From NCBI GenBank assembly GCA_036476315.1, contig JAZGBI010000063.1, positions 1 through 64,000 on the forward strand: DNA of 64,000 nt. Reading direction: 5' to 3'. Under the pieces are notes generated by a model that was not told where the DNA came from, did no database searches, and saw only the letters and a list, made by a program, of their open reading frames with translations. The position numbers and the translations under genes were made by a program. Each line of letters starts with the position of its first letter. Within the stretch, counting starts at the first letter, position 1. The DNA is from Candidatus Neomarinimicrobiota bacterium (GTDB lineage: Bacteria > Fidelibacterota > Marinisomatia > Marinisomatales > S15-B10). This document shows, piece after piece, positions 22,707 to 26,689 of this stretch.

Positions 22707-23327
22707 GTCTAGGCTTGATAGCTTCCGCGAAGCTGTCCTCTATTCAATCGAGTTTAGCACCCGTCGTGAATCGTTTCGTGGGCATGGGGTCATGGTCATG
22801 GGGCCACATCTTAATTATTAACTATTTTCCTTTCCCTACGCCTCAGGTTGTAACCTGTTATCCCTTGTTGGAGAAATGGAGTATTGGGACATGGACACTA
22901 GTTAGCAGCGGCAGTTGGCAATAAGCAGTCACCATCCAAGATAAAAGGAAAAGGTTCAAGGAACAAGTAGCAAGGGTCAAGGATCAAGTAAGCAGTATCC
23001 AGGAACCAGCGGCAGTTGGCAGCACGCAGAAGACGACACAAAGGACTAAAGATAAAAGGAGCAGTTGACAGTGGGCAGGAGGTAGCAGTTTTCTCAGAGC
23101 TTTCTTATAAAAAGGGGTCAAGTCTGCTGTTGACCCTTGCGTAAATCGGGTGACATCTTTGGGCGTTGGGGTCACATCTTAAATGTTCAGCGTCGAGGAA
23201 TTGATTGCTAAATTACCAAGAGTCAAAGGCAGACTTGTTTACTTCTCTCACAGGACAAATTAAAAGAAATGAATAAGGCAAGACGAGAACAGGCAAGCCC
23301 GTCCCCAGTTGGAACGTTCCCTGAAAG
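22707..23327. repeat. Gene-free stretch with heptamer-word array
   Basis: Contains a degenerate array at about 22905-23100 with GGCAGTTGGCA, CAAGG-NN and CAAGTA words. Short direct-repeat tags follow: GGGGTCAAGTCTGCTGTTGACCC at 23114 (an inverted pair GGGTCAA/TTGACCC) and GGGGTCACATCTTAA at 23166. The same tags appear near 19730, 21740 and 24570. No gene is supported. Confidence 0.6.
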
Positions 23328-24191
23328 TTGGGGGCGTTGGTGAGTTCGAGTCTTGATCACTCTGCTATTGCGGGCAGGAACTGGAAGCTGGAAAAAAGAG
23401 ACCACGCCACATTTGATTTAACGTCCATAACCTATTACACCCCCATTGGTTTAACATTTCTTGCGGGTCTGTTGACCAGGAAGATGCGTCTATCCAGCAC
23501 AGGGGAAGTATCGGTAAATGATCAGGTTATAAACTACCTGGAACGAATCGACTTCCTGAAGTTCGCGGATGAGAGTTTTCACGGCAATGTTTCTATTATC
23601 CCGGAAAGACCCTCTATTCAAAGGCGTTCTCTCCCGGAAAGTCTCGTGGAGTTCTGCCTCATCAACATCAGAGACGTGGACGAATTGGAGACGGTCATCG
23701 ATAGACTGTCCACTTTATGCTCTGAAAGAGCTGCAGACATAATTCCCTATCCTTACGTAAATGATGTTTTTGCGAAGTTACTTGACAACATCTTCCGGCA
23801 TTCCCACACTACCGAGGCGTTCGTCGTTGCTCAAACGGCATCGGGATGTGTGCGTATATCCATTAGTGATGTAGGTGTCGGGATTCCCCAAAACATTAGA
23901 TCCCAATATGGATCTGTTTCTACAGATAGTGAGGCAATCAGGAAAGCGACAGAACTCGGTATTACAACTAGCGAAGGAGGGACAGAATTGACGCTTCTTA
24001 GAGACTACATAGTTGACCCTGAAGATTATCTATTCATTGCTTCGAATCAAGGATGCGTTACTTTTCGTAGAAACAGGTCATTCACACACAGAAAATACGA
24101 CAGCAATTTTTCAGGTACCTTTGTTGAGATCTGCTTTAAGATTGAGTCTAAATATAGAAGGCAGCTTGAGGATAGCGATCTGCTTTTTTGA
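23328..24191 (+). CDS. STAS-like/GHKL ATP-binding protein
   Basis: A 287-residue soluble protein. The N-terminal third (FDLTSITYYTPIGLTFLAGLL, then a YLERIDFLKF segment) resembles a STAS-type fold. The C-terminal part (about 130-275) is a GHKL ATPase with the N-box KLLDNIFRHS, G1-like ISDVGVGIP and SEGGTELTLLRDY in the ATP-lid region. It lacks a HisKA domain, so it is more like an anti-sigma/SpoIIAB-type switch kinase than a sensor kinase. The start is TTG 23328 (or GTG 23340); a TGA lies just upstream in frame. Its 3' end overlaps a convergent DUF4325 gene by 44 bases. Confidence 0.75.
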   Translation: MGALVSSSLDHSAIAGRNWKLEKRDHATFDLTSITYYTPIGLTFLAGLLTRKMRLSSTGEVSVNDQVINYLERIDFLKFADESFHGNVSIIPERPSIQRRSLPESLVEFCLINIRDVDELETVIDRLSTLCSERAADIIPYPYVNDVFAKLLDNIFRHSHTTEAFVVAQTASGCVRISISDVGVGIPQNIRSQYGSVSTDSEAIRKATELGITTSEGGTELTLLRDYIVDPEDYLFIASNQGCVTFRRNRSFTHRKYDSNFSGTFVEICFKIESKYRRQLEDSDLLF

Positions 24192-24480
24192 ATATCTGAG
24201 GATCGACCTTCGTGATTCTAATAAGAGAGGCAATTTTGAACCGCACAGCGTCACCAATATTAATCAGTTCTACATGATACCCATCCTCATATAGTTTCAA
24301 TATTGTGGCCTGAATGAAGGAAACTGAGACATCTCTTATCCCGTCGAAACCGAAGACTATGCGACCTGGTTTCCAATTTTGTCGCCCAAGAGAATTTGTT
24401 ATAAGCGAGCACAGGGAATTTCCCGAATGCCTCGTCAATGTATGCTGGGTGTGAGATGATATTTTGACCACTGCGTCCAT
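24148..24480 (-). CDS. STAS-like DUF4325 domain protein
   Basis: A 110-residue protein with a ribosome site (AGAAGAGG) eight bases before its ATG. The core GRIVFGFDGIRDVSVSFIQATILKLYEDGYHVELINIGDAVRFKIASLI is the DUF4325 pattern: a beta strand ending in FDG, the conserved SVSFIQA helix and an NIGDAVRFKI end. DUF4325 is a STAS-like fold often encoded beside GHKL ATPases such as the gene at 23328, which here faces it tail to tail with a 44-base overlap. By analogy with anti-anti-sigma factors it could be the ATPase's binding partner; that is inference. Confidence 0.8.
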   Translation of the reverse strand: MDAVVKISSHTQHTLTRHSGNSLCSLITNSLGRQNWKPGRIVFGFDGIRDVSVSFIQATILKLYEDGYHVELINIGDAVRFKIASLIRITKVDPQIFKKADRYPQAAFYI

Positions 24481-24882: not shown

Positions 24883-25176
24883 TTATACACCCACTAACTC
24901 TAGCTTCTTTACTTCCTTGAGGTCTGTTGTCCGTTTGGCGTGCCAGAGTGAATAGTGGTCCTGCATGGCCATCCAGCTTTCCGGACTCCGACCCAATACC
25001 CGGGAAAGACGTAGCGCCATTTCTGGCGTAACATTACTTTCACCATTCAATAGTCGGATAAAGGTAGAAGGCGCTACATTAAGATTCTTTGCCACTTTTC
25101 TGGCACTCAAACCAAACGGTTCCAGGTAGACCTCTCTGATGAATTCACCAGGATGGGGAGGGTTGTGCATGCTCAT
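24883..25176 (-). CDS. higA: HigA-family antitoxin
   Basis: A 97-residue XRE protein beginning MSMHNPPHPGEFIREVYLEP, the hallmark HigA start, followed by the helix-turn-helix LSARKVAKNLNVAPSTFIRLLNGESNVTPEMALRLSRVLGRSPESWMAMQ. It binds and neutralises the HigB toxin encoded immediately upstream and normally represses the operon. It overlaps higB by four bases (ATGA), in the toxin-first order usual for this family. Confidence 0.92.
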   Translation of the reverse strand: MSMHNPPHPGEFIREVYLEPFGLSARKVAKNLNVAPSTFIRLLNGESNVTPEMALRLSRVLGRSPESWMAMQDHYSLWHAKRTTDLKEVKKLELVGV

Positions 25177-25457
25177 GAGTGATAATCCTCGTAATTGACA
25201 ATATGGGCGTTTCCATTTTCAAATTTGAAGGTGACGCGCCAATTGCCGCTGACCGATATTGACCAGATGCCTTTTCGGCCCCCTTTCAATTGATGTAAGT
25301 TAAATCCAGGGATATTCATATCATCAATATTGGCGGCGGTATCCAAGGCGGCCAACATGAGGCGCAGTCGCTTCGCGTGTGCCGCTTGAATGTCGGCCAT
25401 AGATCCTGTCTCAAAGAATTTTCGTAGCCCTTTGTGCTTAAACGACAGAATCACCAT
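25173..25457 (-). CDS. higB: HigB-type ribosome-dependent mRNA interferase toxin
   Basis: A 94-residue RelE-superfamily toxin of the HigB branch: FKHKGLRKFFETGSMADIQAAHAKRLRLMLAALDTA, then INIPG-like DMNIPGFNLHQLKGGRKGIWSISVSGNWRVTFKFENGNAHIVNYEDYH. The HQLKG-x4-WSI-x4-WR pattern and the NYEDYH end are diagnostic. It cleaves mRNA at the ribosome in characterised relatives. It forms an operon with higA. There is little room for a leader: a TATATT-like box lies two bases before the ATG. Confidence 0.92.
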   Translation of the reverse strand: MVILSFKHKGLRKFFETGSMADIQAAHAKRLRLMLAALDTAANIDDMNIPGFNLHQLKGGRKGIWSISVSGNWRVTFKFENGNAHIVNYEDYHS

Positions 25458-25459
25458 CT

Positions 25460-25488
25460 AATATAGCACGTTGCGCGCCACGCAACAA
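25460..25488 (-). promoter_or_regulatory. Palindromic operator candidate upstream of higBA
   Basis: GTTGCG-CGCCA-CGCAAC at 25470-25486 is a perfect six-base inverted repeat with a five-base centre. It sits between a TTGTTG box and a TATATT box (17-base spacing, read on the minus strand). The boxes are so close to the ATG that a transcript from them would begin inside the first codons, so the promoter part is uncertain. A HigA-bound operator at this place is plausible. Confidence 0.4.
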
Positions 25489-25638
25489 CAAGTTTTCTCT
25501 CACGTTCATGAGAATAACAAGTTGCTAGCTGCTGATGTTGAGGATTTTGTGAAGGACCTGAATGGCGTACTGGTTCTTTTCAGGACTATGAAGGATAAAA
25601 AGATTACGGAGAGCGATCTGGGAAAACTGGTGGAATAG
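25486..25638 (+). pseudogene. Orphan 3' coding fragment
   Basis: A plus-strand open frame with protein-like sequence but no normal start: ENNKLLAADVEDFVKDL, then LVLFRTMKDKKITESDL and GKLVE before TAG. It reads like the last 40 residues of a helical protein whose 5' part is gone; the upstream bases belong to the higBA promoter. It suggests that the higBA cassette or its boundary displaced an older gene. The family is not recognised. Confidence 0.35.
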
Positions 25639-25659
25639 GTAGGAGAGCACTACGGGGAA

Positions 25660-25972
25660 CACATTGAAGAACCCCTGTACGCTTACGCTACAGGGCAGGC
25701 CCCGATACAGTCGCTTCGCTCCCTACAGGGCAGGCAAGCTCCAAGATCCAAAAACCAGAAGTCAAAGTTGGCAGTCCCGAGGGATCGGGATCTCCGCTAC
25801 GCTTCGATTGGCAGGAGGCAGGGTCAAGATAAAGGATAAAAGAGAAAAGATAAAAGGACCAGTTGGCAGTTGGCAGCGCTAGACGTTATGAGTTATGTGT
25901 TAAGAGTTAATGGAAAGAGGTTCGATGTTCGATAGCAACCAGGGACCAGTTACCGACAGTGGGCAGGGAGAA
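25660..25972. repeat. Repeat-rich gap
   Basis: Contains CCCCTGTACGCTTACGCTAC followed by AGGGCAGG (a variant of the CCCCCGTACGGT block at 26905 and 38632), a second CCCGAGGGATCGGGATCTCCGCT block at 25775, and CAAGATAAAGGATAAAAGAG plus GGCAGTTGGCAG words. No gene is supported between the coding fragment ending at 25638 and vapC. Confidence 0.6.
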
Positions 25973-26371
25973 CTAGGGGAGGCACTGGAATCCTTGCTCT
26001 TTGAAATGCTTATCGAATACAAACGCTATCTTGATCCCTAATCGCCGCATCATATCGAAACTGACACAATCTACAAGGCTGAGTTCACGCCTGTTTGCGG
26101 CAAGCATGCTCGTTACGCCTGCCTCGTGGACCGATTCATGAACCCATTTGACAGTCAAGATTGGAACAACGTCTTCTTGAAAGCTCCTAACTGCCTTCAT
26201 TCCAAGACGATGTTGAATTAATGCGAATGTCTCAATTAGAATATAACTGCTACACACCAGAGTATCGCTCTTGTCAATAAGCTCTTCCCATTTTTTCCCG
26301 GCTTTTGAATGATTTTCATCGTCAGCGTCCAGGATAGCCAAGAATGCCGATGTATCAATAAAACTGGTCAT
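25973..26371 (-). CDS. vapC: PIN-domain toxin, VapC family
   Basis: A 132-residue PIN-domain ribonuclease. The first acidic residue is in SFIDTSAFLAILDADDENH, the second in SSYILIETFALIQHRLG (glutamate) and the third in LSLVDCVSFDMMRRLGI, with FVFDKHFKEQGF at the end. These are the usual acidic metal ligands of VapC enzymes, which cleave tRNA or rRNA in characterised cases. The start overlaps the antitoxin stop by four bases. Confidence 0.9.
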   Translation of the reverse strand: MTSFIDTSAFLAILDADDENHSKAGKKWEELIDKSDTLVCSSYILIETFALIQHRLGMKAVRSFQEDVVPILTVKWVHESVHEAGVTSMLAANRRELSLVDCVSFDMMRRLGIKIAFVFDKHFKEQGFQCLP

Positions 26372-26616
26372 TTCCCGTACGCCTCAGCCAGATGCCTATC
26401 ATGTTGAGTGGATAGATCTGTGCGACCAGACCGAAAACGACCAGCCACTGCGATTGCCCGCCGCCGCCGCTCATCAGGACCTACGGATGAGATGGAACGA
26501 AGCAATATTTCTACTCCCCGACGAATTAGTTCCGCCACGGACTCATGCCTCTCGGCTGCTAACCTCTTCAATGTGGTGGCTTGTTCATCAGTCAGCTGGA
26601 TTTGAGTGCGAATCAT
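26368..26616 (-). CDS. Ribbon-helix-helix antitoxin of VapC
   Basis: An 82-residue protein starting MIRTQIQLTDEQATTLKRLAAE, a classic CopG/ribbon-helix-helix strand and helix, then SVAELIRRGVEILL and a basic linker, ending in an acidic/histidine-containing tail (STQHDRHLAEAYGK) that would contact the toxin. ATG 26616, with AAGGGGAA upstream, is preferred over a start 16 codons earlier. It probably represses its own promoter as the complex with VapC. Confidence 0.85.
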   Translation of the reverse strand: MIRTQIQLTDEQATTLKRLAAERHESVAELIRRGVEILLRSISSVGPDERRRRAIAVAGRFRSGRTDLSTQHDRHLAEAYGK

Positions 26617-26689
26617 GACTGTTCCCCTTTCTTCATGATTACATTTTTGATGTAATGATAACACACTTGGTTAAGAAACGCAAGGAAAA

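Follow-up and report, generated by a model that had tools for sequence, protein, structure and literature searches.

The closest described relatives of the gene pair considered here are two kinase-substrate systems reported in EMBO J in June 2026 (PMC13373217). In the first, the HTH-STAS-GHKL protein CapK phosphorylates the STAS-wHTH protein CapS at Ser54 in response to ssDNA (PMC13373217). In the second, the STAS-GHKL protein VapK, the protein VapS, made of a STAS domain and a tail (residues 94-116), and the PIN protein VapC constitute a phage-protective toxin-antitoxin system in which the VapS tail is needed to restrain VapC (PMC13373217). The first-pass annotation of the locus knew of no described function for a STAS-GHKL ATPase paired with a DUF4325 protein, a statement that the CapK/CapS and VapK/VapS descriptions have put out of date; for the convergent lineage itself no function was found in the literature searched on DUF4325, STAS-like domains and VapKSC. 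A Deinococcus neighbourhood of kinase, STAS-like and PIN genes (VapK-VapS-VapC) has a VapS that matches DUF4325 (E 1.5e-14), and six of the seven ORFs tested downstream of codirectional pairs match the PIN family (E<=0.001), five of them above its curated threshold.

The window, i.e. the whole 64,000-nucleotide stretch that was analysed, belongs to a 2.6-Mb draft genome, 96% complete, of a Candidatus Neomarinimicrobiota bacterium. It carries a STAS-GHKL gene and a DUF4325-type gene that converge and overlap at their 3' ends (Table 1), both open reading frames being present as first annotated. The pair is probably a kinase-substrate module of the CapK/CapS-VapK/VapS type that forms a separate lineage, with the substrate gene turned to face the kinase gene. 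The open kinase frame given by the ORF finder (23328-24191, plus strand) encodes 287 aa from a TTG at 23328, and alignment with the relative in genome G012 makes the GTG at 23340 the more likely start. The kinase ORF matches Pfam HATPase_c slightly below the curated cut-off (E 2.1e-5); no Pfam family matches its N-terminal STAS-like domain, which is assigned by alignment with VapK-type proteins. The minus-strand protein yields no Pfam, NCBIfam or PADLOC match at E<=1, and the DUF4325 label first given to it is right by way of its family: of the relatives that match DUF4325, the one in G144 exceeds the cut-off (E 5.4e-6) and those in G024 (E 8.9e-5) and G012 (E 0.025) fall below it. Both genes are single-copy in the window genome, where the sole other kinase match has E 0.098. 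Single-sequence structure predictions reached a mean pLDDT of 46.7 and 31.3, too low to be of use. The intergenic sequence upstream of the kinase gene also contains short repeats, inverted and direct (23119-23139 / 23217-23237 and 22799-22819 / 23167-23187), that include a GGGTCAAGTCTGCTGTTGACCC-like palindrome and are perhaps REP-like elements.

Table 1. Coordinates of the convergent gene pair and of its sequence features in the window.
Feature	Position	Strand	Basis or remark
STAS-GHKL kinase-like protein	23340..24191	+	ORF, HATPase_c, alignment with G012, kinase tree
N-box codon, Lys (FAKLLDN); Glu in 26 of 27 pair kinases	23775..23777	+	alignment
G1 box DVGVGI, intact	23868..23885	+	alignment
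G2-box codon, Glu (GGTEL); Gly in 24 of 25 readable pair kinases	23985..23987	+	alignment
Convergent overlap, 44 bp	24148..24191	.	codes for the last 13-14 residues of both proteins
DUF4325/VapS-type STAS-like protein, 110 aa, ATG start	24148..24480	-	ORF; relatives match PF14213; profile finds 9z7o
Ser54 (SVS54F), candidate phospho-acceptor	24319..24321	-	alignment with CapS Ser54

The expectation that the two families are recurrent neighbours, normally read in the same direction, was borne out by a survey of DUF4325 neighbours: among 27 loci with an adjacent kinase gene, drawn from two phyla and from phage and plasmid loci, 24 are codirectional and three convergent. PF14213 finds 18 matches in 17 of 245 genomes of the window's phylum, 14 of them in HTH-GHKL-DUF4325 fusions, two stand-alone and two in the convergent set; in the second phylum, that of a Ca. 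Loosdrechtia genome, 46 of 392 genomes match, and 30 of the 48 matches, those with loci, were examined. In 27 of the 54 DUF4325-type rows a GHKL gene is adjacent, 18 rows are fused, and nine have no GHKL gene within the flank, G024 with its broken kinase gene being one of the nine. Seven further fused loci (L019, L029, L056, L059, L063, L064 and L066) lie outside this list. Two of the 24 codirectional loci (L046 and L060) resemble split fusions, L078 is in two pieces separated by an insertion sequence, and L047 has an additional GHKL match on the opposite strand which, as a separate gene, was left out of the count. The fusions keep the order kinase then DUF4325, and a Nostoc plasmid encodes STAS-GHKL-DUF4325 as a single protein; such single-chain forms support the physical link between the families that had been proposed. 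The two families are thus linked in general, and within the sample convergence is confined to the window lineage. In two genomes (L026, 1387-1740, and L027, 1435-1746) a stand-alone DUF4325 gene has no GHKL neighbour and adjoins the same two genes, a small glyoxalase-like and an aldehyde dehydrogenase-like gene (names assigned by eye).

Relatives on mobile elements were sought as well. A tblastn search of plasmids and phages with the window kinase gave no relative, nor did five scans of viral contigs, and the DUF4325 protein of G144 gave nothing against plasmids; other pairs in plasmids and phages were reached only with the more distant G144 and S. agalactiae kinases. Streptococcal phages (L043; LYGO9, Javan39 and others), and Bacteroides and Marinitoga phages as well, carry kinase/STAS-like pairs without a PIN gene, and the L043 pair lies near lysis genes. 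A scan of genome contigs found, among the matches listed, two ordinary histidine kinases, and the genomes of these two have no DUF4325 match at E<=0.01.

Searches of 150 relatives and then of 245 genomes of the phylum recovered the convergent arrangement outside the window. The G012 pair (L004; 411-1262 on the plus and 1219-1575 on the minus strand) overlaps by 44 bp and shares with the window pair 46% identity over 279 kinase residues and 50% in the STAS-like protein, and a more distant convergent pair in G144 (L006) overlaps by 4 bp. G024 has an intact STAS-like gene beside a kinase gene with an internal deletion, which has removed the kinase domain and left 98 residues at the N terminus and 31 at the C terminus; the 44-bp overlap is kept. 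The G214 locus is a relic in which 58 C-terminal kinase residues and a frame of the STAS-like tail are left, with an overlap of 44 bp once more. The convergent order is fixed throughout, and four of the five convergent loci (window, G012, G024 and G214) share an overlap of exactly 44 bp. Chance convergence or overlap was rejected on the strength of this recurrence, which extends to a gutted kinase gene and a relic. The window, G012 and G144 group together in the kinase tree (support 98/96), and the short substrate tree sets G144 apart from the window, G012 and G024 (together in 12% of bootstraps); a single origin of the convergence is thus supported by the kinase tree and not by the short substrate tree.

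The overlap itself invites the reading, put forward in the first-pass annotation, that it is a regulatory device by which each mRNA is antisense to the other and the levels of the two products are coupled. The exact conservation of its length in four loci is in favour of such a device, and a simple consensus scan detects no terminator-like site between the two genes, so that overlapping transcripts could form. The codons point elsewhere. In a codon-by-codon comparison of the window with G012, a small sample (44 bp, two loci), kinase third positions are identical in 73% of codons inside the overlap (11/15) versus 30% outside it (80/268; Fisher p 0.001), and kinase second positions in 40% (6/15) versus 66% (178/268; p 0.05), while the STAS-like frame shows nearly the same identity inside and outside the overlap (second positions 0.73 vs 0.76, third positions 0.40 vs 0.35). 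The STAS-like tail is thus under constraint at the protein level. By this pattern the overlap evolves as STAS-like coding sequence, with the kinase tail as its passenger, and the comparison supports the minus-strand gene as real through to its stop. Constraint on the DUF4325 frame therefore suffices to explain conservation of the overlap without a regulatory role, and G024 retains the overlap despite its gutted kinase gene; an antisense device is accordingly considered unlikely.

The serine of the SVSF motif had been singled out as a candidate phosphorylation site, a choice that agrees with its alignment to the phosphoserine of CapS: TDS53S54F55 of CapS from an E. roggenkampii plasmid aligns with SVS54F55 of the window protein, with Ser54 at position -1 from a conserved Phe. 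A serine at -1 or -2 from this Phe is found in 25 of the 27 pairs (15 at -1, 10 at -2 only), as compared with Ser or Thr at the acceptor position in 6 of 18 fused proteins. The window, G012, G024 and G144 proteins all have the serine at -1, i.e. at the position of CapS Ser54; the VapS acceptor position (-2), Ser or Thr in VapKSC, is occupied by Val, Ile or Ala in the window lineage. The placement of VapS Ser48 at -2 derives from chain numbering (length 134 vs 116 residues).

A GHKL protein with a STAS partner is also what makes up the classical anti-sigma/anti-anti-sigma switches of the SpoIIAB/SpoIIAA or RsbW/RsbV type, and freeing of a sigma factor by such a switch would be in keeping with the GHKL fold, with weaker PDB matches that include SpoIIAB (E 0.0021-0.0027) and with a partner serine near the SpoIIAA Ser58 site. 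Yet PDB profile searches with the DUF4325-type alignments place Escherichia VapS (9z7o) first (A4 E 1.9e-6; A1 E 0.0028), and SpoIIAA is absent from the lists. The window kinase moreover differs from SpoIIAB and RsbW in its extra N-terminal STAS-like domain, as in CapK and VapK, its partner is of the DUF4325 type, and none of the ORFs read next to the convergent pairs was recognised as a sigma-factor gene. The partner-switching system first suggested therefore fits as far as its kinase/STAS logic goes, and its sigma-factor form is unlikely.

How well the window kinase would serve a module of the CapK/CapS-VapK/VapS type is a separate matter. In an alignment of 58 kinase rows (55 distinct) the N, D and G1 Gly residues are intact in all 54 readable rows. 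The window kinase is the only one of those in the 27 pairs to have lost both the N-box Glu, which is the catalytic base, and the second Gly of the G2 box, so that the N-box Glu and intact G2 box expected of an active GHKL serine kinase are both missing from it; the G012 and G144 kinases keep the two residues. Since two catalytic-pocket residues are replaced, phosphorylation by the window kinase is doubtful; it may bind ATP and its partner and probably phosphorylates poorly. No counterpart of the aromatic residue that contacts ssDNA (CapK W68, VapK F54) could be assigned confidently in the alignment. The same two residues are lost together in fused relatives from several genomes of one family (L020-L022, L024, L025 and L029, as A/E, N/S or A/A), which suggests that these HTH-GHKL-DUF4325 proteins are a stable pseudokinase subclass.

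Such changes bear on whether the locus is merely a scattered accessory pair in decay, without function in this organism. Its distribution is patchy: profile A1 finds clear matches to this STAS-like type in four of the 245 genomes, and a fifth match, in G185 (E 0.003), is broken by four stops. The kinase is damaged in two of the four loci with an intact STAS-like gene, by the altered pocket in the window and by deletion in G024; G214 is reduced to 3' ends, and the locus lies among toxin-antitoxin genes. Against simple decay, neither window frame is interrupted, the STAS-like protein retains the conserved serine and the tail, and the recurrence of the paired pocket loss in the fused relatives suggests a tolerated state. 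Loss of all function is thus a serious possibility but is on balance doubted.

If the pair is instead, as preferred here, a kinase-substrate module, the STAS-GHKL protein would bind the small STAS-like protein, and intact kinases, such as those of G012 and G144, would once activated phosphorylate the serine that starts the second STAS helix (Ser54 in the window protein). The activating signal would probably be single-stranded DNA arising from damage or from phage, and the phosphorylated STAS-like protein would release its target, which would be its own dimer or else an effector bound through the C-terminal tail. Phosphorylation, ssDNA sensing and effector release are proposed here by analogy with CapK/CapS and VapK/VapS (PMC13373217). 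Given the damage to the window kinase pocket (E to K, G to E), the module there is probably binding-only or a decaying remnant. A further, speculative and improbable proposal is that the convergent pairs are damage-sensing modules of a third lineage, whose substrate gene was inverted and gained an effector-binding tail by being read into the antisense strand of the kinase 3' end. On this view the substrate would persist after its kinase is altered, as in the window, or deleted, as in G024, and would inhibit on its own an effector whose gene lies elsewhere. The comparison links DUF4325, an orphan label in Pfam, to a mechanism reported in 2026, extends such kinase-substrate pairs to a third clade with another gene order and without VapC or an immune operon, provides a natural case of an overlapping antisense frame that encodes a constrained protein tail, and raises the question whether a substrate can work without its kinase.

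The surroundings of the pair are those of toxin-antitoxin genes: HigB-like/HTH and PIN/RHH pairs (24883-26664) adjoin the DUF4325 gene and lie on its strand, a four-helix (23S rRNA IVP) protein is also encoded nearby, and G012 has a HigB/HTH pair downstream of its copy. The PIN gene at 25973-26371 was considered as the missing VapC and rejected, because it is paired with an RHH gene of its own and BLASTP does not match it to Deinococcus VapC. No VapC-like PIN gene adjoins the window pair, and no VapKSC-type VapC was found at E<=0.1 in the window genome (G000), G012, G144 or G214; the matches in G024 are weak (E 0.002 and 0.05) and lie elsewhere in its genome.

Among known relatives, the HTH-GHKL-DUF4325 fusions common in the window's phylum, for which no described function was found, have the same two domains in the same order and differ in being a single chain with an HTH, in which the acceptor serine is mostly absent. 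The window pair resembles VapKSC in having a STAS-GHKL kinase without an N-terminal HTH (the STAS part by alignment only) and, as substrate, a small STAS protein of the DUF4325 type with a short tail at its C terminus. Unlike VapKSC, its genes are convergent rather than an operon and lack an adjacent VapC, the acceptor serine stands one residue later, and the kinase, its pocket altered, falls outside the clade (100/99) formed by the VapK-type rows. With CapKS it shares a STAS-GHKL kinase and a STAS protein whose acceptor serine is at the CapS Ser54 position. It differs from CapKS in that the kinase has no HTH and lies outside the CapK clade, the substrate has no wHTH, and the convergent genes are not followed by an immune operon, as judged from the neighbouring genes (PADLOC was run on the window's two proteins only). 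The window pair is thus best described as a convergent, decaying variant of the CapK/CapS-VapK/VapS kind, distinct from both CapKS and VapKSC.
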